The notes below the pieces were generated by a model. That model ran no database searches and was not told the DNA's origin. It was given only the letters and a program-made list of their open reading frames with translations. DNA of 25,983 nt from a virus. The translations under genes were made by a program, and so were the position numbers. Every line of letters begins with the position of its first letter. Positions within the stretch are counted from its first letter, which is position 1. Location: the IMG/VR virus record IMGVR_UViG_3300021370_000030, positions 1 through 25,983 of that record; one strand, written 5' to 3'. This document shows positions 2,349-25,983 of the stretch, one piece after another.

Positions 2349-3639
2349 GCGTCAGGCCGCGCTATCGGAGCTTACCGATGCGGAGGCGCGCGCCTTGCTT
2401 TACAATTGGCGCGGATTCCTTGCGAGAAAGGATCAGATCGCACCGGATGGCGATTGGGACGTATGGCTTGCACTGGCAGGACGTGGTTGGGGTAAGACAG
2501 AGACGGGCGCGCGCTGGGTAAAGGAGCAGGTAGAGGCTGGCGTTAAGTCAATCGCGCTTGTTGCTGAGACACAGAAAGACCTTGAAGAGGTTATGGTTGC
2601 GCGGCTATTGGCAATCTATCCGCCGGGCGAAGGGCCAAAGGTCAGATATAAGCCTGTTCGCGTCACATGGCCGAACGGTGCAACTGCATTGGGATACAAT
2701 GGAACAGAACCGCAACAGCTACGCGGTCCAGAGTTCGAGGCCGCTTGGGTCGATGAGTTGGCGAAATACAGATACGCCCGTGAAACTTGGGACATGCTGC
2801 AATTCTGCATGAGGGCGGGCGACGATCCCCGGCAGCTTGTCACGACAACACCGCGCGCAACTGAACTGATCAAGGCAATCGTAAGCGGGCAGGAGGGTAA
2901 GGTTCACGTCACGCGCGGCCGAACGCAGGACAACAAGTCAAACTTAGCACCGCGCTTTTTGGAAAAGATCGTCGCACGGTACGAAGGCACGCGCCTTGGG
3001 CGGCAGGAGTTGAACGCTGAAATCCTCGGTGATCTTCCCGGCGCATTATGGGCGCAGGCAACGCTAGACACTTACCGCGTGTCTGAGGCCCCGGAAATAG
3101 GCCGCACTGTGGTCAGCATTGATCCGGCGGTGACGAACACCGAGAACAGCGATAAACACGGGCTTATAGTGGCTGGCATGGGGCCAGATCAGACGGGATA
3201 CCTCTTAGAGGATGCTTCCCTATCAGGTTCTCCATTGGATTGGGCGAAGGCGGCAATAACTCTTGCGAAGAAATACGACGCGGATGGCGTTGTGGTCGAA
3301 GTGAACCAAGGTGGCGATATGGTGGCGCACACGCTGCGCAGTATCGCGCCGAACTTGAACATTATTGAGGTGCGAGCAACCAAGGGCAAGCACGTCAGAG
3401 CAGAGCCCATCGCGGCCTTGTATGAACAGGGGCGCATTCGCCACGTTGGCCAGTTCCCCGCAATTGAGAACCAAATGACGCAAATGACGACAGAAGGCTA
3501 CCAGGGCGACAATTCGCCGGATGAACTGGATGCGGTGGTTTGGGCATTCACTGAATTATTCCCCGACATGACCGAGGTCGTGCCGGACGCATCAAAATAC
3601 ATGAACAGCTACAGTGGTGGCGGATGGATGGGCAGATGA
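2263..3639 (+). CDS. terL: Terminase large subunit (ATPase-nuclease)
   Basis: 458 residues: the motor that packages and cuts phage DNA. The ATPase domain has Walker A GRGWGKT (residues 73-79, Lys78), Walker B AAWVDE (160-165, with Asp164 and Glu165) and a coupling motif VTTTPR. The RNase H-like nuclease domain has three acidic residues in the expected places: Asp287 (VVSIDPAV), Glu346 (GVVVEVNQ) and Asp423 (ELDAVVWA). The lead-in DWDVWLALAG and the overall length match the terminase type seen in alphaproteobacterial phages and gene transfer agents rather than P22 gp2. The start is ambiguous: TTG 2263 or GTG 2272, both inside terS. The stop overlaps the portal start as ATGA. Confidence 0.93.
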   Translation: MAQVQPNSQHSSKPLQSVAEQLASLTANERQAALSELTDAEARALLYNWRGFLARKDQIAPDGDWDVWLALAGRGWGKTETGARWVKEQVEAGVKSIALVAETQKDLEEVMVARLLAIYPPGEGPKVRYKPVRVTWPNGATALGYNGTEPQQLRGPEFEAAWVDELAKYRYARETWDMLQFCMRAGDDPRQLVTTTPRATELIKAIVSGQEGKVHVTRGRTQDNKSNLAPRFLEKIVARYEGTRLGRQELNAEILGDLPGALWAQATLDTYRVSEAPEIGRTVVSIDPAVTNTENSDKHGLIVAGMGPDQTGYLLEDASLSGSPLDWAKAAITLAKKYDADGVVVEVNQGGDMVAHTLRSIAPNLNIIEVRATKGKHVRAEPIAALYEQGRIRHVGQFPAIENQMTQMTTEGYQGDNSPDELDAVVWAFTELFPDMTEVVPDASKYMNSYSGGGWMGR

Positions 3640-5618
3640 ACAACGAAGATATCATCAAGACGGCCAGAATCCGCATGTCGGAATCCGTGACCGCTGATCT
3701 AAAGAACCGCGAAGACGGACTGAATGACCTTGAGTTCGCGGCTGGCCTTCAATGGCCACCGACTGAAAAGGAAGCGCGCGAAACCGCAGGCCGTCCATGC
3801 CTAACCATGAACCGGATGCCCCGATTTGTGCGACAGGTAACGGGCGATATTCGCAAGCTGAACCCATCGGTTAAGGTTCTTGCAGCAGATCAAGAAGCAA
3901 ATGAGCAAACGTCAGAGCTGAACGAAGGCATCATTCGTAATATTGAGTACATCAGCGATGCTTCGTCAGTTTATGAGGGCGCGGCAGAAAGTGCAGCGCA
4001 GTGCGGAATCGGCAACTTTCGCATTCTGACTGATTACGAAAGCGACACATCATTCAATCAGGAAATCAAGGTAGAGCGCATCCGCAATCCTTTTGCGGTT
4101 TATTGGGATCCAGACGCGCGCGCGCCGACACGCTCCGACGCCGGATATTGCTTTATCACGGACAAAATGAGCGCCGATGATTTCAAGAAGGCATACCCTG
4201 GCAAAGACGGTGTTGATGCTGAACATGATGGCAATACGGATGGCCTCGAAAACTGGTCCGAAGCTGGCGATGTTATCGTTGCGGAATACTACTGGAAAGA
4301 GCCTCGTAAGGTGAGGCTCGGCTTGATGGCTGACGGCAGCACGATTGAAAACCCAACAGCAGCGCACAACACGGTCAAAATCAGAACCGTAAACACGCAC
4401 ACGGTCAAATGGGCCAAGCTTAGTGGGCAGGATGTATTAGAGGGGCCAAAGGACGTGCCTTCTATGCACATTCCAGTTGTTGCGGTTGTCGGTGAAGAAA
4501 TTCACGTTGGGGACAGGATCGTTCGCACATCGGTTATCCGGTTCGCCAAAGACCCACAGCAGCTTTACAATTATTACGCCAGTGCTGACGCCGAAGTTGT
4601 CGCATTGCAGCCTAAAGCGCCGTATCTTGTCACGATCAAGCAAGTCGCGGGCATGGAAGCGATTTGGGCGGCCGCAAACGATGGCAACAAGGCTTATCTG
4701 CCATACACGCCAGATGAGAAAGCACCACCACCGCAGCGCATTCCGCCGCCGGTTTCGTCTAACGCCATGCAGACGGGCATGATGCGCGCCGAAGACGATA
4801 TGAAGGCAACCACTGGCATCTATGACGCTGCCCTTGGTGGTCGATCAAATGAACAATCTGGCATTGCTATCCGCCAGAGACAGCTTGAAAGCGATATCTC
4901 AACCTCGATCTATACGGACAACCTCGCCAAATCCATTGAACACGCAGGCCGCATCATGGTTGATATGATTCCGCGTGTTTACGATACTGATCGTATGATG
5001 CTCATTGTGGGCGACGATGACGATCAGAAAATGGTGCGGGTGAATGGTCAGGAAGTGACTATTGGGCCGGACGGGATGCCACAGGCAACGCCGGTCAATA
5101 ACTTATCAAGCGGCAAGCATACTGTTCGCGTATCTGTTGGCCCTAATTACACCACGCGCCGTCAAGAGACTGCCGAAAGTATGATGCAGTTTGTTCAGGC
5201 ATTTCCTGCGGCGGGCCAAGTGGCGGGTGATCTGATTGCCAAGTCTATGGATTGGCCGGACGCTGACAAGCTGGCCGAGCGCCTCAAGAAGATATTGCCA
5301 CCCGGCATGATATCGCCCGAAGATTTGCCGCCCGAAGAGCAGCAGGCCATGCGGCAACAGCAGCAGCAGGCGCAGGCGGGCGAACAAGAGCAGAAGCAGA
5401 TACAGCAGGCCATGATTAGCGCCGAGATACGCAGTAAAACAGCCAAGGCGTATGAAGATGAAGCCGACGCGGCTAAGGCAGGCGCAGAGGCGCAGAAAAC
5501 ACAAGTCGAGACAGCGATTATGTCCGGCGAATTGAATGACGCGATTGCGCAGATTGTGCAACAGCAAGTCATGCTCGCGCTACGAGGCGCGGGGCAACAG
5601 GGCTTCGGCCCACTCTAA
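3636..5618 (+). CDS. Portal protein, P22-like
   Basis: 660 residues, a little shorter than P22 gp1. The portal forms the dodecameric DNA entry ring at one capsid vertex and binds terminase and tail. Recognisable features are the N-terminal DLEFAAGLQWP and GRPCLTMNRMPRFVRQVTGD segments, IRNPFAVYWDPDARAPTRSD, and a central TGIYDAALGGRSNEQSGIAI segment, all typical of P22-type portals. The C-terminal 100 residues are Gln/Ala/Glu-rich and predicted coiled coil, matching the portal barrel region. The ATG at 3636 overlaps the terL stop. An ATG at 3624 is possible but lies inside terL. Scaffold and coat genes follow, as in P22. Confidence 0.92.
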   Translation: MNNEDIIKTARIRMSESVTADLKNREDGLNDLEFAAGLQWPPTEKEARETAGRPCLTMNRMPRFVRQVTGDIRKLNPSVKVLAADQEANEQTSELNEGIIRNIEYISDASSVYEGAAESAAQCGIGNFRILTDYESDTSFNQEIKVERIRNPFAVYWDPDARAPTRSDAGYCFITDKMSADDFKKAYPGKDGVDAEHDGNTDGLENWSEAGDVIVAEYYWKEPRKVRLGLMADGSTIENPTAAHNTVKIRTVNTHTVKWAKLSGQDVLEGPKDVPSMHIPVVAVVGEEIHVGDRIVRTSVIRFAKDPQQLYNYYASADAEVVALQPKAPYLVTIKQVAGMEAIWAAANDGNKAYLPYTPDEKAPPPQRIPPPVSSNAMQTGMMRAEDDMKATTGIYDAALGGRSNEQSGIAIRQRQLESDISTSIYTDNLAKSIEHAGRIMVDMIPRVYDTDRMMLIVGDDDDQKMVRVNGQEVTIGPDGMPQATPVNNLSSGKHTVRVSVGPNYTTRRQETAESMMQFVQAFPAAGQVAGDLIAKSMDWPDADKLAERLKKILPPGMISPEDLPPEEQQAMRQQQQQAQAGEQEQKQIQQAMISAEIRSKTAKAYEDEADAAKAGAEAQKTQVETAIMSGELNDAIAQIVQQQVMLALRGAGQQGFGPL

Positions 5619-15852: not shown

Positions 15853-15880
15853 ATTAAACTCAAACTGAAAAGGGGGCCAC

Positions 15881-18355
15881 ATGGCTGCTTTACTAAATCC
15901 ATTTGTTCGCGCACTTGACGCTAACGGAGACCCTGTAAGCGGCGCGTTGCTTTACGTGTTCGAGGCGGGAACTACAACGCCTGTGACGACATACAGCGAT
16001 AGCAGCCTGTCGGCAGCGCAGGCGCATCCTCTTGAGGCAAATTCAGCAGGCGAATTTGAGCAATCATTTCTTGAGAGCGGATCGTATAAAATACGTGTTT
16101 CCGATGCTGACGAAGTTACGCTAAATGAAACAGACAATGTGCGAATGGCAGCGCGCCCAGACGACCCAGTGTTTTTGCCAGATCAGGCAAGCATCTTAGC
16201 CGACACGTCAAGTTATGATGATGGAACCTATATAATCTCCCAAGCGGATGGCAGTCGGTTTCTCGTTTTATCGTCAGGCGCTACAGATTATGACGTGACG
16301 AATGCTGGCGGCGAAAAGTTGCAATATGTGAACCGCGATTATTTGACTGTTTCTGAGCTTCTTTCCAGCAACGAACAGGCGCGGGGGGCGGGGGCTTCAT
16401 GGTCGGCTGCTGGCTTTGGTTATGTAGAGGCGGAAAGCGCTGCCACAGATCATCACATCACAATCGGGTCCGGCGTGAAGCTGTATGCTAATTGTAAAAA
16501 TGGCTCTGTTAACGTCATGGCGTTTGGCGCGATTTCTGATGCCACCAGCAGCGGAGACGGCACCGACAACGCGACATTTTTCCAATCGGCCATAGATACG
16601 GGCTGTTCCGTTTTTGTCCCATCTGGCGATTTTCGGGTTTCTTCTGTTACAATAAGCACATCGGGTCAAAAGATTTTTGGCGATGGAATGGGGTCTAGCT
16701 TAGTTTATCCGATTGATACTTATTCATGTTTTATCGTCGCGCGCGACAAGATCGAAGTTTCAGACATTGAGTTCATCGGAAAGACTGGCAGCGACCAATA
16801 CGATGCGACAGGCGATTGCATTAAATTCGACGCCGTAACGAATGACGCGACATTTACCCGTCATATGGAGGGGTGCAAGGTTGAGCGCGTGGGCTTCCGA
16901 AACCTCAAAATGAACGGGATTTACGTCCCGCACCTATTGCGAGAAAGCCATATTCGTGAATGCCGTTTCGTTGGCGTTGGCGATGCCGCCACTAATCGTC
17001 ACGGGATTAAGTTTCTGAACAGCATTGGCACCGGATCCAACATCAACAATATTTGGATTGATAGTAATATGTTCTATCGGTTCAATTCCGCAGCGATCAA
17101 AGGCTATCGATCCACAGTTCTAGCCGGATCCGCCGGAAGCTTCGCAGATATCCGGTTGACCAATAACTTGATTCACGGGCAATTGATAGACGAAACAGGT
17201 GGCGGCGTTGAGCCAGAACCTACAAGCCACGTCCGCTTTCAGGACGCCAATACGTTGTTTGTTATTGGCAATAAATTCACATCTGTTCACCCGCTGCACT
17301 ACGGTCTCTATGTGACAAATACCGGGACTTACGGCAAAGTCGCGACTGTAATCGGGAACCACTTCGCAACCAAAACGACTGTAGATGGCGTGACTTATAG
17401 CCGCGACGGTGCAAATCTGGCTACGGGCGGATATGTCAATATCATCGGCACCGAAGCAATAAGCATCAACAACAACGAAATGGCCGCCGGGACATTTGTC
17501 AACGATATCACTTTATCGAATGGCGATTATACGTCCAAGATAAGCGTTTGCTGCACTGGCAACACGTCTGAGGCCGGGGCCGTTGCTGTGAGCCATTCTT
17601 CACTTGGGGCAATCAATTCTGGCTGGGCTGGAACAATTGAGCAAGATGATTTGATTGAGACGACAAACGATCTCGATATGTATGCGTCTTTAAATGTAAC
17701 TGCTGACGCGGTTTCAGAGTTCATCAGGACCGGCAACGGATTGGCGCTTCGGTTTAAATATGATGACGCGACTAGCGGGGCCTTCATAGGATCACCGGGT
17801 GCGAACCAATTCCAAGTCGCGTCAAATGGTGGCTCTCCACTGTTTGTGGTTGATAGCGTGAGCTCCACCCGCCCTGGCGCTGACAATTCATATTCTCTCG
17901 GTTCCGCGTCATACAGATGGTCTGATGTGTATTCGGTAAACGGCACAATCAATACATCTGATGAACGCGAAAAGCAGGATGTTGAGGAATTATCCGACGC
18001 AGAAATGGCTGTTGCTTCGGATTTGAAAGGATTGATCCGCAAGTTCAAGTGGCGGAACTCTGTCGCAGAGAAAGGTGACGCGGCCCGAATTCACGTTGGC
18101 GTCATGGCCCAAGAGGTTGTCGCGGCGTTTGCATCGCAGGGGCTGGATGCCCACGCCTATGGCGTTCTTTGCTTTGATGAATGGGAAGACCAATTCGAAG
18201 ACATTTATGAACAGCAGCCGGTATTGAACAAGGCGGGAGAGGATACCGGAAAAACGCAGCCCGTAAAGGTCGGCGAGCGACTATCCAGACCAAAGGGCAA
18301 TCTCTACGGCGTTCGCTATGAGCAGTTGTTTGCGTTTATAATCGCTGCAATGTAG
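15881..18355 (+). CDS. Tailspike with beta-helix and S74 autochaperone domain
   Basis: 824 residues. Residues 1-90 (NPFVRALDANGDPVSGALLY...) are a podoviral head/tail-binding module. From about residue 210 (VNVMAFGAISDATSSGDGTD) a pectate-lyase-3-like right-handed beta-helix begins, with DGTDNATFFQSAID and repeated short Asn/Gly/Val coils to about 600. The last 130 residues form a Peptidase S74 intramolecular chaperone: TSDEREKQDV places Ser693 and Lys698 at the spacing of the known Ser-Lys cleavage dyad. It then ends RYEQLFAFIIAA. The chaperone trimerises the spike and cuts itself off. The spike would bind and perhaps degrade surface polysaccharide; no catalytic residues can be assigned. Confidence 0.9.
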   Translation: MAALLNPFVRALDANGDPVSGALLYVFEAGTTTPVTTYSDSSLSAAQAHPLEANSAGEFEQSFLESGSYKIRVSDADEVTLNETDNVRMAARPDDPVFLPDQASILADTSSYDDGTYIISQADGSRFLVLSSGATDYDVTNAGGEKLQYVNRDYLTVSELLSSNEQARGAGASWSAAGFGYVEAESAATDHHITIGSGVKLYANCKNGSVNVMAFGAISDATSSGDGTDNATFFQSAIDTGCSVFVPSGDFRVSSVTISTSGQKIFGDGMGSSLVYPIDTYSCFIVARDKIEVSDIEFIGKTGSDQYDATGDCIKFDAVTNDATFTRHMEGCKVERVGFRNLKMNGIYVPHLLRESHIRECRFVGVGDAATNRHGIKFLNSIGTGSNINNIWIDSNMFYRFNSAAIKGYRSTVLAGSAGSFADIRLTNNLIHGQLIDETGGGVEPEPTSHVRFQDANTLFVIGNKFTSVHPLHYGLYVTNTGTYGKVATVIGNHFATKTTVDGVTYSRDGANLATGGYVNIIGTEAISINNNEMAAGTFVNDITLSNGDYTSKISVCCTGNTSEAGAVAVSHSSLGAINSGWAGTIEQDDLIETTNDLDMYASLNVTADAVSEFIRTGNGLALRFKYDDATSGAFIGSPGANQFQVASNGGSPLFVVDSVSSTRPGADNSYSLGSASYRWSDVYSVNGTINTSDEREKQDVEELSDAEMAVASDLKGLIRKFKWRNSVAEKGDAARIHVGVMAQEVVAAFASQGLDAHAYGVLCFDEWEDQFEDIYEQQPVLNKAGEDTGKTQPVKVGERLSRPKGNLYGVRYEQLFAFIIAAM

Positions 18356-19960: not shown

Positions 19961-20605
19961 ATGGCAAAGATTTACAAAAACTGGAAAGATTACCCGACAG
20001 AGCATTGGCGCTGGCCCGATTTCAGCCCACAGGAAATGGCTTGTCGCGGCACGGGGCGTCTGATGATTGTCCCTGCGGCCATGGATAAGCTACAGGCGCT
20101 CAGGGACAAGTTAGGGCGTCCTATGATCGTCAACAGTGCCTATCGGTCCCCAGAACACAACGCAGCCGTTGGCGGGGCTGAAGACAGCGAGCACATGAAA
20201 GGCACAGCCTTCGACGTGAAGATGGATAACCACGATCCGGCGCACTATATCAAGACTGCCAAGTCGGTTGGGTTTCAGGCTATCGGGACTTACCCGCGCC
20301 AGAACTTTGTCCATGTGGATGATCGAGGCTCTGCGGCAAGCTGGGGTAAACCGTTTCCCAAGCGCGCAGCAACACCTGAATTTGCGACGGAGGAAAAGCG
20401 GCCTGAAACCAATCCAGTCAAAGATCCACAGGTTCAGGGTATCGTTGCAGGTATCACGGGCGCAGCGACGGCATCGCCAGCAATCCTGAAAGGCGTGTCT
20501 GACCTCGATCCGATTGCTCAATACATCGCCATTGGCGGCATCATGGTTGTTGTGGTGGTCCTGCTCTGGCTCATGGTCCGCCGCATCGGATGGCTGGCCC
20601 AATAA
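19961..20605 (+). CDS. Peptidase M15 endolysin with C-terminal membrane anchor
   Basis: 214 residues. The N-terminal ~140 residues are an M15-type D-Ala-D-Ala-like zinc peptidase: YRSPEHNAAVGG, then SEHMKGTAFDV with His78 and Asp85, and NFVHVDDRG with His118, giving the His-Asp-His zinc site. It cuts peptide cross-links in peptidoglycan. A Pro/Lys-rich linker (about 140-160) leads to Gly/Ala-rich residues and a hydrophobic helix YIAIGGIMVVVVVLLWLMVR near 188-207, with a basic end. No N-terminal signal is seen. A C-terminal anchor is unusual for an endolysin and could hold the enzyme at the membrane until holin action. Confidence 0.88.
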   Translation: MAKIYKNWKDYPTEHWRWPDFSPQEMACRGTGRLMIVPAAMDKLQALRDKLGRPMIVNSAYRSPEHNAAVGGAEDSEHMKGTAFDVKMDNHDPAHYIKTAKSVGFQAIGTYPRQNFVHVDDRGSAASWGKPFPKRAATPEFATEEKRPETNPVKDPQVQGIVAGITGAATASPAILKGVSDLDPIAQYIAIGGIMVVVVVLLWLMVRRIGWLAQ

Positions 20606-20757
20606 TGGGCTTTGTTTATCTTGCAATATTTTTCGGGATCATCGGCGTTGGGGCCGGTGTTCTCGCGGGATGGCTTACGCCGGCCGATTCAATGCCTGAG
20701 ATTTTGGGCGTGGCTGGCGTGGGCTTTGGCCTATGGCTTGGGAGAAACTGGAAATGA
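20605..20757 (+). CDS. 50-residue two-span membrane protein, holin candidate
   Basis: Starts in the TAATG overlap with the endolysin stop and ends in an ATGA overlap with the inner spanin. Two hydrophobic segments, FVYLAIFFGIIGVGAGVLAG and EILGVAGVGFGLWLG, flank a short TPADSMP loop, and the end is basic (RNWK). Small, two-helix, glycine-rich and placed between endolysin and spanin, it fits a class II-like holin or pinholin that releases or depolarises the membrane. Function is inferred from size, topology and context. Confidence 0.55.
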   Translation: MGFVYLAIFFGIIGVGAGVLAGWLTPADSMPEILGVAGVGFGLWLGRNWK

Positions 20758-21089
20758 TCGGACTTCTGACAGGCGTATCGCTTCGCACATGGCTCATTGT
20801 GGCCACTGTGGCGGGTGCTGGGGCGTTTATCGGCTGGAATAGGTGGGATGCTGTACGGGACGCACGACAGGCCGCAGAGGCGGACGCGTTGCGGGCAACC
20901 ATTCGGATAATCAAGGAACAACAGGAGCGCAGGAATGACATTGAGAAATTGGATGATTGCGAGTTGCTGCGTGATGCTATTAAGCGGCTGTCCGGGGATG
21001 CAGCCCGAGCCGCTTCCGAATTTCAGCGATGTGGTGAGGAAACCGCCAACGGTTCCGCCGAAAACGGTGACGTACCTAGCGAAGAATGA
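20754..21089 (+). CDS. Inner-membrane spanin (Rz-like)
   Basis: 111 residues from the ATG at 20754, coupled to the holin candidate by ATGA. Residues about 12-28 (TWLIVATVAGAGAFIGW) are a membrane anchor. Residues 30-80 are a charged Ala/Arg/Glu coiled coil with ARQAAEADALRATIRIIKEQ, and the C-terminus is Asn/Gly/Glu-rich. This is the i-spanin layout: an anchored helix crossing the periplasm to meet an outer-membrane lipoprotein. The outer-spanin gene begins inside it at 20935 in another frame, as in lambda Rz/Rz1. Together they would fuse the membranes in the last lysis step of a Gram-negative host. Confidence 0.82.
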   Translation: MIGLLTGVSLRTWLIVATVAGAGAFIGWNRWDAVRDARQAAEADALRATIRIIKEQQERRNDIEKLDDCELLRDAIKRLSGDAARAASEFQRCGEETANGSAENGDVPSEE

Positions 21090-21153
21090 CGCGGGTTTGC
21101 TGCGTTGGGTTTTGGAAGTCGCGCAGGCTTGCGACGAATACGGGTGCGCGTGA
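20935..21153 (+). CDS. Outer-membrane spanin lipoprotein (Rz1-like)
   Basis: 72 residues, in the +1 frame relative to the inner spanin, overlapping it by 155 bases and extending 64 beyond. The N-terminus has a basic start, a hydrophobic stretch and a lipobox LLSGC, making Cys19 the likely lipidation site. The mature part is proline-rich (PEPLPNF, KPPTVPPKTV) as in Rz1 proteins, and ends with a CDEYGCA segment. An AGGAG motif precedes the ATG. It would sit in the inner leaflet of the outer membrane and bind the inner spanin. The partially embedded arrangement is known in phages. Confidence 0.85.
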   Translation: MTLRNWMIASCCVMLLSGCPGMQPEPLPNFSDVVRKPPTVPPKTVTYLAKNDAGLLRWVLEVAQACDEYGCA

Positions 21154-21203
21154 TCTCGGAAAAGGCCAGCGTTGAAGTTTGGCGCTTCGGTGTCTGGAGG
21201 ACT

Positions 21204-21290
21204 ATGACCAACCGACACTCACCAACGCGCGCTCCATATGAATTTAAGGCGTTGGAATGTGAACGATTGTGCTGGCCTTATCGGAGATAG
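21204..21290 (+). CDS. 28-residue ORF with a strong ribosome site (doubtful)
   Basis: ATG 21204 is preceded by TGGAGGA, the best Shine-Dalgarno match in this gap. The product (MTNRHSPTRAPYEFKALECE..., ending RR) is hydrophilic with two cysteines. It lies between the outer spanin and the convergent minus-strand gene. It shows no recognisable fold, and at this length chance cannot be excluded. A second open frame with a GTG at 21269 overlaps its end. Confidence 0.25.
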   Translation: MTNRHSPTRAPYEFKALECERLCWPYRR

Positions 21291-21293
21291 CCG

Positions 21294-21314
21294 CCCGCGC
21301 CCGTGTGACGCGGG
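21294..21314. terminator. GC-rich hairpin between convergent genes
   Basis: A perfect six-base stem CCCGCG (21294-21299) / CGCGGG (21309-21314) with a nine-base loop lies ten bases before the end of the minus-strand gene at 21324 and after the plus-strand lysis genes. There is no T-run on either side, so it is not a classic intrinsic terminator. It could stop transcription from both sides with Rho, or be incidental. Confidence 0.28.
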
Positions 21315-21323
21315 ATGGCGTGT

Positions 21324-21830
21324 TTAAGGCTGGCCACCTTGGGCGATGCGATCAAACTGCGGTGCTGTGGATCTGCCATTCATGCGCTGATCAACAATCG
21401 CGGATCCTGCGATCATTCCCCCAACAATTGCGAACGGTCCACCGCCTGCGAATACAAAGGCAGCATTTGCAAGGCCAGTTGATCCAGCAGAGTCGGAAAC
21501 AGTTTCAATCTCAAACTGAGTTGCGCCATTTGCTCGCATTGCATGGCATATTCCAAGCTTAACAAGAACGCCGACAAGTGGTGACGCCGCATTGCCCGCC
21601 GCTCCAATGACAGGATTTGCCTCTTCCGCCACACCCGTTGCGATGGCCAATGCGCTTGCCCCGATATCGCCTGCCCCGTGCCACCCAATGCAACGCTCTG
21701 CCTTTGGTGTGACGCCAGACCCCGGCACCATTTCAATCATGATTTCTTGCGCCATACAGGCGACAGTTGTTGCCACGGCGAAAACCGATGCAAGCCCGAG
21801 GGCGTATGCTGTTGATGTTTTGAAGTTCAT
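21324..21830 (-). CDS. Exported or membrane protein, unknown function
   Basis: 168 residues on the minus strand with an AAAGGA ribosome site. Residues 1-29 look like a signal peptide (basic NFK, hydrophobic core, ACMAQ end) with possible cleavage near residue 28. Two later hydrophobic, Gly/Ala-rich stretches lie at about 55-95 and 118-147. The segment with Asp55 and EEANPVIG (69-76) vaguely resembles small DUF5658-like membrane proteins. Cys47 and Cys95 could pair in the periplasm. It is transcribed away from the recombinase with the 79-residue gene upstream. It may be a lysogenic-conversion or exclusion factor, inferred from context only. Confidence 0.6.
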   Translation of the reverse strand: MNFKTSTAYALGLASVFAVATTVACMAQEIMIEMVPGSGVTPKAERCIGWHGAGDIGASALAIATGVAEEANPVIGAAGNAASPLVGVLVKLGICHAMRANGATQFEIETVSDSAGSTGLANAAFVFAGGGPFAIVGGMIAGSAIVDQRMNGRSTAPQFDRIAQGGQP

Positions 21831-21842
21831 TGTGTTGGTCCT

Positions 21843-22082
21843 TTATCGTTGCGTTTCGACAAGGCGAATTGCCATGCCTTCGATCGTGTCGCCGGGTGTG
21901 TCCGGCTTTTGCGCTTTGCGACCTTCATATCCCGCCACCCCAAGCGCCCATAGGCACTCGCGGGCCATCCGCTCAGACCAGTCTCTTGATGTGGGCGAGA
22001 GGTTGTGCCGCGCGTGACTATCAAAGAACGCATATGCGAGCCGTAGCACGTTGTCCTTTTCCGCTTTGGTCCGGTTCACCAT
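21843..22082 (-). CDS. Small soluble protein, unknown function
   Basis: 79 residues, first gene of a two-gene minus-strand operon, ending 12 bases before the exported protein gene. An AGGA motif lies upstream of the ATG. The sequence is helical with aromatic residues (NVLRLAYAFFDSHARHNLSP, DWSERMARECLWALGVAGYE). It has no recognisable motif or membrane span. Given its position facing the recombinase across a divergent regulatory region, it might be a regulator, but no HTH is clear. Not recognised. Confidence 0.55.
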   Translation of the reverse strand: MVNRTKAEKDNVLRLAYAFFDSHARHNLSPTSRDWSERMARECLWALGVAGYEGRKAQKPDTPGDTIEGMAIRLVETQR

Positions 22083-22109
22083 TAGTCAGACGGTCCTATC
22101 TTTGTTTCG

Positions 22110-22212
22110 CTACATAGCAGATAGCATAGCATATATGGTCGCGCAAGCACAAAAGCATTTTGTACCAGAATTATTTAGCACCTTTACATATACGGGATTA
22201 TTCCTTATGTAG
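22110..22212. promoter_or_regulatory. Divergent control region with repeated TAGCA motifs
   Basis: This AT-rich intergenic region separates the minus-strand pair from the recombinase. TAGCA occurs at 22115, 22122, 22127 and 22176. CTACATA (22110-22116) and TATGTAG (22206-22212) form a seven-base inverted repeat 89 bases apart, one at each promoter side. This could be operators or recombinase-binding (res-like) sites. No protein is known to bind here. Confidence 0.35.
22183..22211 (+). promoter_or_regulatory. Possible promoter of the serine recombinase
   Basis: TTTACA (22183-22188, five of six bases matching TTGACA), a 17-base spacer, then TATGTA (22206-22211). The recombinase ATG at 22218 is only six bases after the -10, so the mRNA would begin at or near the start codon (leaderless). 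No strong Shine-Dalgarno sequence precedes that ATG, which is consistent with this. Confidence 0.3.
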
Positions 22213-22217
22213 AAGAT

Positions 22218-22871
22218 ATGAAAACTTATGGATATATGCGCGTCTCGACAGACGATCAGGACTTCAAACTCCAAGAGGATGCCCTCAACCGCTATGGCGT
22301 TGATCACATCTTCTCTGACAAAATGACTGGGGCGCGAATGGACCGCCCCGGCTTAAAACGTGCCGTCAAGGTGATGCGTCCCGGTGATAAGCTGGTGGTG
22401 TGGCGTCTTGACCGGTTGGGCCGATCTACAATGGGTGTACTGGACGCTGTTCAGAGCATGGAAGCGGCTGGTATTGAGCTGGTATCCATGACGGAAAGCA
22501 TCGACACATCGAGCCCAATGGGGCGCATGTTCCTTACGATCTGCGCTGCATTCGCCCAAATGGAGCGTGACCTTATCTCAGAACGCACCAAGGCTGGTAT
22601 TGCGGCGCACAAGGCTCGTGGTGGCACGATGGGCAAGAAGCATTTCGTAAAGGACCACCCTGCTCGACTGGCCAAGGCGCGTGAGATTGCCGATATTGTG
22701 ATCGGCGGCGGCATCACGGGCAAGGAGTTCGTTGCGCTTATGCACGAGGCGCAGCCAGAACCGCGCATTAAGTCGGTGCAGAGCCATTATAATTGGAAAG
22801 CCAAGGGGTTTGACGGGCTGTTGCTCGATGTACCACTGGCCGATGTTGAAGTTGATGAGGAGCAAGGCTGA
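22218..22871 (+). CDS. Small serine recombinase (resolvase/invertase family)
   Basis: 217 residues. The N-terminal catalytic domain (1-135) is clear: YMRVSTDDQ with nucleophile Ser10 and Arg8, then RLDRLGRST with Asp65, Arg66 and Arg69, and the long E-helix FAQMERDLISERTKAGIAAH. The enzyme would cut DNA through a phosphoserine link and rejoin it, resolving dimers or inverting a segment. The C-terminal 80 residues lack the usual GRP...LT HTH and instead show GGGITGKEFVALMHEAQPEP followed by a possible helix-turn-helix. It is far too short for a large serine integrase. It is the first gene of a three-gene plus-strand operon with TGATG couplings. Confidence 0.88.
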   Translation: MKTYGYMRVSTDDQDFKLQEDALNRYGVDHIFSDKMTGARMDRPGLKRAVKVMRPGDKLVVWRLDRLGRSTMGVLDAVQSMEAAGIELVSMTESIDTSSPMGRMFLTICAAFAQMERDLISERTKAGIAAHKARGGTMGKKHFVKDHPARLAKAREIADIVIGGGITGKEFVALMHEAQPEPRIKSVQSHYNWKAKGFDGLLLDVPLADVEVDEEQG

Positions 22872-23050
22872 TGATAAAATCAGTAAGGTATGCAAAGATT
22901 ATGAGCGCCGTTGGATTTTTTGTCGCTGATCTGGGGCATTGGGTGGCGGGGCATGAGTGGGGCGTTGACCTATATGCTACGGGCATCAAGCACGGGTTGG
23001 AGTTCCCCGCCGATGCTTACGACTACATCAAAGATATGGAGGATACCTGA
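22871..23050 (+). CDS. 59-residue protein coupled to the recombinase
   Basis: The ATG at 22871 overlaps the recombinase TGA as TGATG, and its own TGA overlaps the next ATG the same way. The N-terminus is basic (MIKSVRYAKIM). A moderately hydrophobic, aromatic middle contains His and Trp residues (GFFVADLGHWVAGHEWGVDL), and the end is acidic (DYIKDMEDT). The function is not recognised. Its size and tight coupling suggest it is co-produced with the recombinase. Confidence 0.5.
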   Translation: MIKSVRYAKIMSAVGFFVADLGHWVAGHEWGVDLYATGIKHGLEFPADAYDYIKDMEDT

Positions 23051-23337
23051 TGGATATCGTGGGGCTACTTCGGGACAGTGAGTTCAGTGCCGCCAACAAC
23101 CGCTTCAAGGCCGCTGACGAAATTGAAAGGCTGCGCGCGGCAGTGTCCGTTGCCGACGCCTTTCTTGGCAATTTGCAGCAAGTGAACTCTGAACCCTTAA
23201 ACTCTATCAACGGGGGAGACCGCAAGACCCGCGCCCACTTCACCGCAGAGTTGCGGAATGATGCAAGACTCGCTTGGGCCAATGTGGGAAACTTGGTGAA
23301 CGGTCACATCGACGTAGCACCAAAGGAGCCTGACTAA
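23050..23337 (+). CDS. Small helical protein, last gene of recombinase operon
   Basis: 95 residues starting in a TGATG overlap. Residues 1-45 are helical and charged (GLLRDSEFSAANNRFKAADE, then IERLRAAVSVADAFLGNLQQ). A Ser/Asn/Pro-containing linker and another helix (RAHFTAELRNDARLAWANVG) follow. The DEIERLRAAV stretch recalls small phage proteins with leucine-rich helices, but no function can be named. It ends with a four-base overlap with the convergent minus-strand operon. Confidence 0.55.
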   Translation: MDIVGLLRDSEFSAANNRFKAADEIERLRAAVSVADAFLGNLQQVNSEPLNSINGGDRKTRAHFTAELRNDARLAWANVGNLVNGHIDVAPKEPD

Positions 23338-23594
23338 CCGCCCGCTCGCCACTTAGCCACAGCGGGGCAGTCTGACTTGATTGCCCCGTCTGGACATCCG
23401 CATTTTGGCCAGTCGCACAGCTTGAAGTCTGGGCCGCTTTCGATTTCCAACTCCAACGCCTTCCCGTATGTCTCCAATATCTCGGCAAGAACAATCGCGC
23501 TATCCGGTTCAAGCGTGATCTGTGACCGCATTCCAGCAGCTGCGCCCGCTCTGAGCGTTGACGCCATGCCGTCGAATGTTTTGAAATTAGCCAT
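23334..23594 (-). CDS. Small cysteine-containing protein of recombination operon
   Basis: 86 residues, last gene of the minus-strand operon. Its start overlaps the upstream stop by one base (23594). The N-terminal 60 residues are helical (MASTLRAGAAAGMRSQITLE and AIVLAEILETYGKALELEIE). The C-terminus has a cysteine cluster CDWPKCGCPDGAIKSDCPAV, possibly a small metal-binding knuckle. No family is named. It converges with the plus-strand gene at 23050, overlapping it by four bases. Confidence 0.55.
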   Translation of the reverse strand: MANFKTFDGMASTLRAGAAAGMRSQITLEPDSAIVLAEILETYGKALELEIESGPDFKLCDWPKCGCPDGAIKSDCPAVAKWRAGG

Positions 23595-24016
23595 TAGTAA
23601 TCCCCGCCCAACATATCTATCATTGAATTTGTGTCTTCAAGGTAACCAAAATCAGGGCCATATGCGGCTTCCCATGTTTCTTGCCCTTGGTGGTATGCGA
23701 TCTTGCTTTTGTCCCGGTCAAACCGCAGCCCCTGGTGGTGGCACATGCAAAGCGGGATCGTATTGATATCGTCCTCGCGCGCCGAAGAAAACCGCCCGCT
23801 TTTGCAGTGGTGTGCTTCGGTCTTGCTGGTCTGCACCGTTCCGAACTTGACGCAGATGCAGCACGGCAATCGGCGAACCTTTACCATGCGGGCTAGATCC
23901 GCCTGCCCCGCGTCTGACTTGCGGTAATCGGCGCGCTTCTTTGATATCTGCCGCATCCATTTGCGTTTATTCTTTTCGGGCTTCGGTTGCTTTTGTCCGA
24001 GCGGGCCGCGCATCAC
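23594..24016 (-). CDS. HNH-type nuclease, Ref-like (RecA-dependent) candidate
   Basis: 140 residues. The N-terminus is very basic (Lys/Arg/Gln to residue 50). The rest fits the compact HNH-type zinc nuclease of phage P1 Ref and related NinX/NinG-like proteins: CCIC (52-55), EAHHCKSGR (68-75 with His69 and His70), then IPLCMCHHQGLRFD with Cys90, Cys92, His93 and His94, followed by FxxxYG-like WEAAYG. This layout suits a DNA-binding nuclease. RecA dependence is known for Ref and only presumed here. Its neighbours NinB and the annealing protein support a recombination role. Confidence 0.68.
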   Translation of the reverse strand: MMRGPLGQKQPKPEKNKRKWMRQISKKRADYRKSDAGQADLARMVKVRRLPCCICVKFGTVQTSKTEAHHCKSGRFSSAREDDINTIPLCMCHHQGLRFDRDKSKIAYHQGQETWEAAYGPDFGYLEDTNSMIDMLGGDY

Positions 24017-24384
24017 GTTTCCACCTCTGCGTTTGATAGGGCGGAAGCCTCATAGTGATCTGGCCATTCTAGTTGGTGTGTTAGAGGATCATCCGATGCC
24101 GCTTTTGCGTCAGAGGTAGAGAACTTTTCCTCTGAGTTATCGACCGCTGCGGATCGTGCAGACACGTCTAGGACGCCCTCGGAATAAGCTAACCCCACCA
24201 GAGACTTTTGCCGTCTGGCTTCGCGTTCAAGAGCCTTCGCGCTCACCTCTTGCTGCGGAATGGCGGCTATGGCGGCACGGGCTTGCATCCGGTAAAGTTC
24301 GCGCTGCGTTTTTGGATCATCCCAATTTCGACACATTGCCACAGCTATCGCCTTTGCCACCCGCTCTATCGTTTCATCAGTCAT
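24013..24384 (-). CDS. Unknown protein of recombination operon
   Basis: 123 residues, overlapping its neighbours by four bases on both sides. Residues 1-45 are helical and contain VAKAIAVAMCRNWDDPKTQR and a segment with MQARAAIAAIP, a pattern common in small phage proteins of unknown function. Residues 50-110 are Ser/Ala/Asp-rich and probably disordered. There is no catalytic motif. Its place between a coiled-coil protein and the Ref-like nuclease implies co-expression with recombination genes. Confidence 0.55.
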   Translation of the reverse strand: MTDETIERVAKAIAVAMCRNWDDPKTQRELYRMQARAAIAAIPQQEVSAKALEREARRQKSLVGLAYSEGVLDVSARSAAVDNSEEKFSTSDAKAASDDPLTHQLEWPDHYEASALSNAEVET

Positions 24385-24926
24385 GTTGTTCCCTTTGCTA
24401 TGAGTGCTTCAACTGCGTCTCGGCAATCGTGCGTTGCGTTCAACCCGTGGCCGTTAGCCCGCTCGGCACACTTCTTGCGAGGGCCATGCCATATTGCATT
24501 CATGGCGTCCGTTAGCGCGTCTTCCCGTACCGTTTTAAGCGCTGCCTCTAGCTCTGCAATGCGTTCGACAGCCTTCCCGAACTCGTCCAGCTTTTCTTTC
24601 ATATGCTGGTATGCCGCGTCAGCGGTTACGCCGTCGGGATCACTCCATCCGTCGAAGCCAGTCGCTTCAAGTAGCGCGCGCATAGATACCCAGCAGTCAC
24701 CTTCGAAGTCCGCAGACACCTTAGTTTGGTGTTCGTCGTATTCCATTTGCAGGTCTTCAAGGTCCGCTTCCAGCGATTGCTTTTGCGCCTCTAGCTCTGC
24801 AATGCGGGCCGCTTGGGCGAGGAGGGTTTCAGACACATCCTGACCTTCGTGTACTATGCCACCAAGGTTGGCGGCTATTCCTTTAGCCATATCCTCAACC
24901 GCTTCTTTGCTAATATCAGTCATCAT
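24381..24926 (-). CDS. Coiled-coil protein with duplicated repeat
   Basis: 181 residues, starting 11 bases inside the NinB-like gene. Two coiled-coil blocks, AQAARIAELEAQKQSLEADL and VERIAELEAALKTVREDALT, flank a middle region with the FEGDCWVSMRALLEATGFDG segment. The RIAELEA block is encoded by the same 20-base sequence twice. The C-terminus contains WHGPRKKCAERANGHGLNAT, a His/Cys-containing tail. No family is recognised. It might bridge or scaffold proteins, based on the coils only. Confidence 0.55.
   Translation of the reverse strand: MMTDISKEAVEDMAKGIAANLGGIVHEGQDVSETLLAQAARIAELEAQKQSLEADLEDLQMEYDEHQTKVSADFEGDCWVSMRALLEATGFDGWSDPDGVTADAAYQHMKEKLDEFGKAVERIAELEAALKTVREDALTDAMNAIWHGPRKKCAERANGHGLNATHDCRDAVEALIAKGTT
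24544..24806 (-). repeat. Two in-frame copies of a 20-bp repeat
   Basis: GCCTCTAGCTCTGCAATGCG (plus-strand reading) occurs at 24544-24563 and again, identically, at 24787-24806. The copies are 243 bases apart, an exact multiple of three, and both encode RIAELEA within the coiled-coil gene. The identity at all positions, silent ones included, suggests recent duplication or gene conversion. Confidence 0.85.
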
Positions 24927-25371
24927 TCATCCCTTCATATTTCTGCAAACTCGGGTCTATAAGCCGAACGCCAGCTTCCGCAAAATGTTGCATCATGGCG
25001 TCCATGTACTCACCGAGTTGCTTTGTGTTCATCTTCGACGTTATCGCCGGGTCCAGAACCTCGAACATTTTGCGCTTTGTTTCGTATGGCAGCGGCTTGA
25101 ACGTGGCGTCATAGTCCGCTTTGAATGCGGCATCATCGCGGCGCAGAATCGGAACGCCAAAGATCAGCTTGCATTCAGCCCGAACCTTTGCAAACGTAGT
25201 ATCGCCCATTTCGCGCTCGATCTGAGCATACCACATATGAATCGTGTCATTCTGCGGGTTTGTCCGCTTTGCCCCTCTGACATAGGACACCGTGAGCGGG
25301 AACGGTTGAGACTGCAAAGCCCTCTCCCATCCCCGCAGGTCTTCCGGTGTTTTGATCACACGGCTAGGCAT
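24916..25371 (-). CDS. NinB-like recombination protein
   Basis: 151 residues. RTNPQNDTIHMWYAQIEREM (RxxPQN...W....EI pattern) and the end of the domain with ITSKMNTKQLGEYMDAMMQH leading to AGVRLIDP are characteristic of the NinB (PF05772) family, whose lambda member modulates Red recombination. The central CKLIFGVPILRRDDAAFKAD segment is helical. Its start overlaps the upstream annealing-protein stop by one base (TAATG). It sits with a Ref-like nuclease and a putative single-strand annealing protein, so a phage recombination role is well supported by context. Confidence 0.72.
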   Translation of the reverse strand: MPSRVIKTPEDLRGWERALQSQPFPLTVSYVRGAKRTNPQNDTIHMWYAQIEREMGDTTFAKVRAECKLIFGVPILRRDDAAFKADYDATFKPLPYETKRKMFEVLDPAITSKMNTKQLGEYMDAMMQHFAEAGVRLIDPSLQKYEGMNDD

Positions 25372-25983
25372 TACCCGTCAGCGCTTTCTGCGTCCGCTGC
25401 TTTTTGACCCGCCTTAGCAAACTCAGCCTTTATCTCTGTGAAATGCTCATCTGTTAGGCTCTCCAAGGTTTGCTTTTCTTCCTTCCAATAATCACTCAAC
25501 GCCTGCTTGGTTGTGATCGAATTGATTGCAACAAGCATATCATCACGAGCCTGCGCGCTATTAAATGGCGGGCCACTCTCTGCCTCACGATAGGCGGCGT
25601 TTACGTCCTCAACATACTTTTGATCATCCCAACGTCCCAAGAAGATATTTGCTGCAATCCCCAAGTGAGACGCGGCCTTGATAATTGCATCCGTCAGACT
25701 TTTCTTTGGGGCGTCTTCGTCAACAAGAGCCTTGCCTCCTGATGTGGTGTATGCGGCGCGCGTCTGGCCATAGCTGTCGAATGTATTGGCGCGATCTGTA
25801 TGCCAGAACTTTATGCGACACCAATGGATCGTCTCAGCCCCGATAGCCTCCCAAGATTCGGCCACAACATCCCAGCCGAACCCCTGCCCAACAGGCCCGA
25901 ATATCTCTGTCAGGCACTTTATGACGTATTGCGGATTTGGGGAAGTTCCCCTGTATGCCTTCCCTGTCATCGGCTTGGTGAAT
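25371..25983 (-). CDS. Putative single-strand annealing protein, 5' end off the window
   Basis: The visible 203 codons include four upstream of the first internal ATG at 25970, encoding FTKP. The frame is open to the window edge, so the true start is probably outside. The segments YRGTSPNPQYVIKCLTEIFG, GFGWDVVAES, FDSYGQT and DEDAPKKSLTDAIIKAASHL fit a phage family placed with Rad52-like annealing proteins (Sak-type). The C-terminal 50 residues are charged and helical. It would pair complementary strands during recombination. The fold assignment is inference; the NinB-like and Ref-like neighbours support it. Confidence 0.5.
   Translation of the reverse strand, partial: FTKPMTGKAYRGTSPNPQYVIKCLTEIFGPVGQGFGWDVVAESWEAIGAETIHWCRIKFWHTDRANTFDSYGQTRAAYTTSGGKALVDEDAPKKSLTDAIIKAASHLGIAANIFLGRWDDQKYVEDVNAAYREAESGPPFNSAQARDDMLVAINSITTKQALSDYWKEEKQTLESLTDEHFTEIKAEFAKAGQKAADAESADG

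Follow-up and report, generated by a model that had tools for sequence, protein, structure and literature searches.

The presence of a small serine recombinase at the junction between the late and early genes of a phage raises the question of which DNA site this enzyme acts on, and what such a reaction would achieve for the phage. The window analysed here, a stretch of 25,983 bases, is a linear virus record that represents a partial genome, with approximately 10 kb of the early region missing. From left to right, the window encodes packaging, portal, coat, injection and fibre functions, followed by a lysis cassette reaching to near 21.1 kb and, from approximately 23.3 kb, an early operon on the minus strand (names assigned partly by inspection). 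The recombinase module is located at the junction after the lysis genes, and not beside the fibre gene. The only named phages with DNA similarity to window positions 20000-25983 are Sulfitobacter phages, over the exonuclease gene only, which makes a roseobacter host likely; the host group is probably the marine alphaproteobacteria. Within the lysis region, ORFs 20733-21089 and 20935-21153 overlap in different frames (20733-21153), a pair resembling an inner-membrane spanin in which an Rz1-type lipoprotein (LLSGC lipobox) is embedded. On the minus strand, an HNH protein (23594-24016) matching the RecA-dependent nuclease family (Ref-like, PF16786) is encoded, with NinB (24916-25371) and a protein annotated as an exonuclease (25371-25970) nearby. 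The early region of the close relative of the window phage (L228, G395 26024-27960) encodes a ParB-like protein followed by a PAPS-reductase-family protein. The fibre N-terminal region (15869-16183) is 73% identical to positions 1611-1925 of L186, from an otherwise unrelated phage (L005, see below), an arrangement that by sequence is typical fibre mosaicism.

The recombinase is encoded by an apparently intact ORF on the plus strand (22218-22871, 217 aa), and a match of 151 bits to the Pfam Resolvase family (PF00239) bears out its assignment as a small serine recombinase by the sequence-only reading. The top PHROG is PHROG_125, DNA invertase (208 bits), and the best PDB matches are Gin structures (142-144 bits), followed by full-length Tn3/gamma-delta resolvase (83-96 bits) and Sin (approximately 50 bits). 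The N-terminal, Gin-like catalytic domain (aa 1-140) contains the catalytic serine and arginines, with S10, R8, R66 and R69 invariant in 8 homologues. Homology thus places the enzyme within the small serine recombinases of the resolvase/invertase superfamily. No Pfam helix-turn-helix (HTH) model matched the C-terminus, which had already been singled out as atypical. An AF2 model (mean pLDDT 79; mostly ~80-91 in the C-terminus, with the last ~14 residues unreliable) nevertheless predicts a diverged three-helix HTH at aa ~148-195 (helices 148-156/158-162, 168-178 and 188-195). The top Foldseek matches of the whole protein are Tn3/gamma-delta resolvase-DNA complexes, with alignments of approximately 200 columns, and the predicted structure is thus that of a recombinase with a small C-terminal HTH DNA-binding domain. 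The turn ahead of the last HTH helix is long, and the helix itself varies by subgroup, reading 'KSVQSYYNWK' in the window group as opposed to 'ETVRRW'-like sequences in distant relatives. In a sample of alphaproteobacterial genomes, matches to the recombinase were mainly over the catalytic domain; the C-terminus of the window group was therefore not recovered in that sample.

The recombinase was originally described as facing a two-gene unit that includes an exported protein. Two minus-strand ORFs do indeed face it: a 79-aa ORF (21843-22082), the first gene of the leftward unit, and a 168-aa ORF (21324-21830), the latter with a signal-peptide-like N-terminus. The range considered at the time (21324-23337) also contains two further plus-strand ORFs downstream of the recombinase, of 59 aa (22871-23050) and 95 aa (23050-23337). 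The 59-aa ORF start overlaps the recombinase stop codon (TGATG), and both ORFs are probably co-transcribed with the recombinase. The 59-aa ORF had no family match, and the 95-aa ORF no convincing one, in Pfam, PHROG and NCBIfam. The 79-aa ORF was likewise without a match in these three collections, and shows weak similarity over 51 aa to Agrobacterium phage Milano (E=2e-3). The 168-aa exported-type protein did not match phages, plasmids, Pfam, PHROGs or NCBIfam, and has one relative in IMG/VR.

The intergenic region contains, as reported, four TAGCA motifs (22115, 22122, 22127 and 22176, all on the plus strand) and a CTACATA/TATGTAG inverted repeat (22110 and 22206). Taken alone, these repeats are weak evidence, because the probability of four TAGCA in 135 bp is 0.003 for a word fixed in advance but 0.07 for any 5-mer, and some exact 7-bp inverted repeat is found in 32% of dinucleotide shuffles. 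What makes the upstream region convincing is its conservation in three other phage contigs. In these relatives, TATGTAG is kept as TATGT[A/T]G and CTACATA as a core only. The TAGCA words fared unevenly: 22127 is conserved in two of the three relatives and 22176 in one, while 22115 and 22122 are conserved in none.

We compared the region across four independent phage contigs (the window, L003, L004 and L005), the only four independent sites known; a fifth record, L058, derives from the same phage as L005. The recombinases of the three other contigs are 77-85% identical to that of the window. The comparison defines a conserved ~110-bp site (22106-22217, plus strand), a candidate res/operator with divergent promoters. 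Pairwise identity of the site is 60-69%, compared with 38-56% at fourfold-degenerate positions of the recombinase gene. Invariant columns number 50 of 106 in the site and 14 of 81 at the fourfold-degenerate positions (p=1.3e-5), these site figures being somewhat inflated by alignment freedom. Conservation extends over the left part (22106-22140, 15/30), the middle (19/41, p=8e-4 against fourfold-degenerate positions) and the rightward promoter (15/30), such that 34 of 71 columns outside this promoter are invariant, again as compared with 14/81. The left motifs a/b (CTACATAGC... and TAGCATATATGG, 22110-22138) align in L003, L004 and L005. The middle motifs c/d (22141-22182) consist of an A-rich AAAAGCA followed by CAGAATTATTTAGCA, and are a candidate accessory binding/bending or UP-type region.

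Measured from the recombinase ATG, the motifs occupy near-constant positions, with the left motif at -104 to -108, the second at -91 to -95, the -35 element at -35/-36 and the -10 element at -12/-13. With leave-one-out profiles, the omitted site was recovered every time (E = 8e-9 to 3e-18), with nothing else significant in its contig, and the full site profile found nothing else significant in the ~2.2 Mb of loci collected. The site is single copy in each of five contigs, and among the sequences compared it was never seen apart from the recombinase. Using L005 and the C-terminal peptide as queries brought no further independent locus. When IMG/VR was scanned for the TTTACA...TATGT dyad, there were 15 matches at the wrong spacing (N10) and 18 at the right spacing (N11), four of the latter being the known records L003, L004, L005 and L058; a dyad this short is therefore of no use for searching by itself. 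A phage recombinase/site system of this kind was not described in titles and abstracts from a partial coverage of the literature, and as far as that search goes the ~110-bp site is undescribed.

The site follows the recombinase and not the neighbouring genes. The genes on its far side are unrelated in each phage, encoding 79- and 168-aa proteins, a 154-aa protein, a DNA cytosine methyltransferase (the leftward neighbour in L004, by inspection) and a 92-aa protein; site conservation therefore tracks with the recombinase. The window and L003 share only the recombinase and its site, the other window ORFs being without a convincing protein match in L003. In the case of L003 and L005, the lysis region is 93% identical and the sequence beyond 85-94%, whereas the modules are only 78% identical and lie between different genes on both sides. 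The module has therefore been exchanged separately from its flanks, and the recombinase and site evidently move between otherwise unrelated tailed phages as one block.

Two divergent promoters would account for much of the site pattern. The rightward promoter, TTTACA-N17-TATGTA(G) on the plus strand (22183-22212), has identical spacing in four phages, and TATGTAG is likely to be the -10 element of the recombinase promoter. The promoter elements also form an inverted pair, TTTACATA/TATGTAG; this dyad pattern has a single match in the window at a tolerance of 3 mismatches, compared with 0 expected. Distant homologues (L009 and L066) have a similar layout by inspection, with TTGCAA-N17-TATGT followed by the ATG. 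In the window, the -10 element ends 6-7 nt before the ATG at 22218, so that transcription is predicted to begin on or immediately beside the start codon. The recombinase gene also lacks a Shine-Dalgarno sequence, in contrast to the good ones of the exported-protein gene (AAAGGA) and the 59-aa (GAGGAGC) and 95-aa (GGAGG) ORFs, and these two features together make a leaderless recombinase mRNA probable. On the minus strand, TGCTA words look like extended -10 elements of a leftward promoter. A consensus promoter scan gave no excess of promoter-like sites in the intergenic region, and the promoter assignment therefore rests on the comparison between phages. LexA-type boxes (GTTC-N7-GTTC) were not seen by eye upstream of the recombinase.

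It is possible, though less likely than not, that the upstream region is a divergent promoter/operator only, made up of two sigma-70 promoters whose upstream elements are AT-rich and perhaps served by a further regulator of the phage, and that the recombinase acts on a different, unseen site. The TTTACA-N17-TATGTA and TGCTA words cover many of the conserved columns. Furthermore, the -35/-10 spacer (22189-22205), which lies between the putative inner half-sites, has 3 of 17 columns invariant, no more than neutral sites, and no symmetrical crossover core is conserved. The TACATA/TATGTA dyad is centred on a base, and the 2-bp staggered cleavage of serine recombinases prefers a centre between bases. 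In addition, the recombinase of the Phaeobacter plasmid pP66_i is only 47 bp from the preceding gene and therefore has no such upstream site. However, with unrelated leftward genes there is no reason for a leftward promoter to be kept in register with the recombinase, the conserved middle block lies outside both core promoters, and the spacing at which the repeats recur is almost constant. Given a core that is odd-centred and unconserved, and promoters that read well, some of the pattern may nevertheless serve transcription alone. The earlier suggestion of a res-like site is compatible with a conserved, multi-repeat, single-copy region that always directly adjoins the recombinase gene, but finds no counterpart in a conserved crossover core, and the symmetry is imperfect.

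Gin/Hin invertases act on two inverted recombination sites flanking a segment, with a recombinational enhancer to which Fis binds. An invertase of this type, flipping a segment for tail-fibre switching or gene expression, for example, would agree with Gin as the closest solved structure and 'DNA invertase' as the top PHROG, and the window enzyme shares with phage Mu Gin both the catalytic domain (~49% identity over aa 5-177) and an architecture of ~200 aa with a C-terminal HTH. We consider it highly improbable, given that each of the five contigs has one copy of the site, that the window (albeit a partial contig) has no convincing inverted repeat pair or invertible segment, that no duplicated or silent fibre segment was seen, and that the gene follows the lysis genes. 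The diverged HTH also sets the window enzyme apart from Gin/Hin, its turn being longer and its helix reading 'KSVQSYYNWKRKGF'. A scan for long inverted repeats in the window as a sign of inversion gave 16 weak pairs, none of which was compelling. The idea of a switch controlling orientation is thus not supported, there being neither a second site in five contigs nor a convincing long inverted repeat in the window.

A comparison with L225, a close relative of the window phage, delimits the module. The two ends of this 37.6-kb record overlap by 1.2 kb at 91.5% identity, and L225 therefore spans nearly the whole genome. Similarity by blastn stops at window position 21844 and resumes at 23323 at 93% identity, with other genes in between in L225; by this comparison 21845-23322 is a swapped segment specific to the window phage, and the 79-aa ORF is absent from L225. 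The 168-aa exported-type gene is kept in the same position (81% protein identity). As regards the plasmid-like prophage suggested earlier, L225 yielded neither a serine recombinase nor a tyrosine integrase, and none of its genes was recognised as a partition or repressor gene. The presence of the exported gene in a phage without any recombinase places the exported protein in the phage backbone, outside the recombinase module, and indicates that the recombinase function is dispensable. The sequence-only reading had joined recombinase and exported protein in one unit, which the comparison contradicts; its notion of an inserted cargo unit holds for the recombinase segment but not for the exported protein. 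L225 carries one full exported-gene copy (3984-4513, 81.6% identical to the window) and one partial copy (3449-3627), the latter corresponding to the 5' end (179 bp, 97% identical to the window). Each copy lies behind a different upstream gene, which points to the locus as a local rearrangement hot spot.

That the recombinase itself swaps or inserts neighbouring genes at its site (cassette exchange) would account for the differing neighbours on either side of this locus in related phages, and for the window-specific segment relative to L225. We assign this very little probability, as ordinary mosaic recombination suffices, the breakpoints relative to L225 (21844 and 23323) do not fall within the site, and the genes of L225 at this place differ just as much without a recombinase. 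Least probable of all is a role as phage integrase: tyrosine integrases are absent from both the window and L225 and serine recombinases can be integrases, but large serine integrases have ~450-600 aa with zinc-ribbon and coiled-coil domains, the 217-aa recombinase has no Pfam domain beyond Resolvase, and the L003, L005, L006 and L007 contigs, as well as pP66_i, carry a tyrosine integrase as well as this recombinase or a homologue.

We therefore favour a module that resolves phage genome multimers and autoregulates, with a probability of approximately 0.5. The recombinase would be transcribed, probably as a leaderless mRNA, from the promoter inside the site, and would bind the repeated TTACATA/TAGCATATACGG motifs. 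Bound recombinase would repress both the rightward and leftward promoters. A phage DNA multimer would join two copies of the site in direct orientation, and recombination between these would yield monomer circles, as for Tn3- and Sin-type resolvases. One site per contig is as expected, because the two copies would come from the multimer. Resolvases such as Tn3 and Sin autorepress, and a single multi-motif site between divergent promoters, together with the need for two copies, fits multimer resolution with autorepression.

Among the known systems, Tn3/gamma-delta resembles the window in layout: one multi-motif site of ~100 bp lies between divergent promoters, immediately ahead of the recombinase gene. 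The window enzyme also matches the fold of full-length resolvase-DNA complexes. In contrast, the window catalytic domain is more distant from Tn3/gamma-delta (83-96 bits, as opposed to 144 for Gin), the module is without a transposase and resides in phages, and its site is a candidate res with putative subsites. At approximately 105 bp, the window site is longer than Sin res (86 bp) and shorter than Tn3 res (114 bp; PMC2428073). The candidate site has an inverted motif pair close to the gene and direct repeats at a distance of ~60-70 bp, with an A-rich stretch in the middle, a layout that recalls the site I, bend and site II arrangement of Sin/beta (PMC2428073), although the sequence relation is weak (50 bits) and the spacing differs. 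In the case of pP66_i (Phaeobacter phage/plasmid), a roseobacter record with a complete complement of phage structural genes, the recombinase is 44% identical to that of the window over aa 5-193. This 33.8-kb Phaeobacter inhibens plasmid (L179/L189) encodes the Gin-like recombinase, then a PrtN-type regulator, then a tyrosine integrase, and may be a circular prophage or phage-plasmid.

A more far-reaching proposal, which we regard as unlikely, is that of a phage-specific class of Gin-derived resolvases, with a diverged HTH, a new ~105-bp res/operator and a leaderless mRNA, forming a self-contained module for genome monomerisation that is exchanged among unrelated marine phages and functions whether or not an integrase is present. 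The comparison with L225 corrects the idea of the exported protein as cargo of the recombinase. If the conserved site is the enzyme's own res, these phages carry a dedicated system for making DNA monomers that travels as a unit. This would be informative on the maintenance of circular phage genomes, and would add a compact recombinase/site pair to those known.
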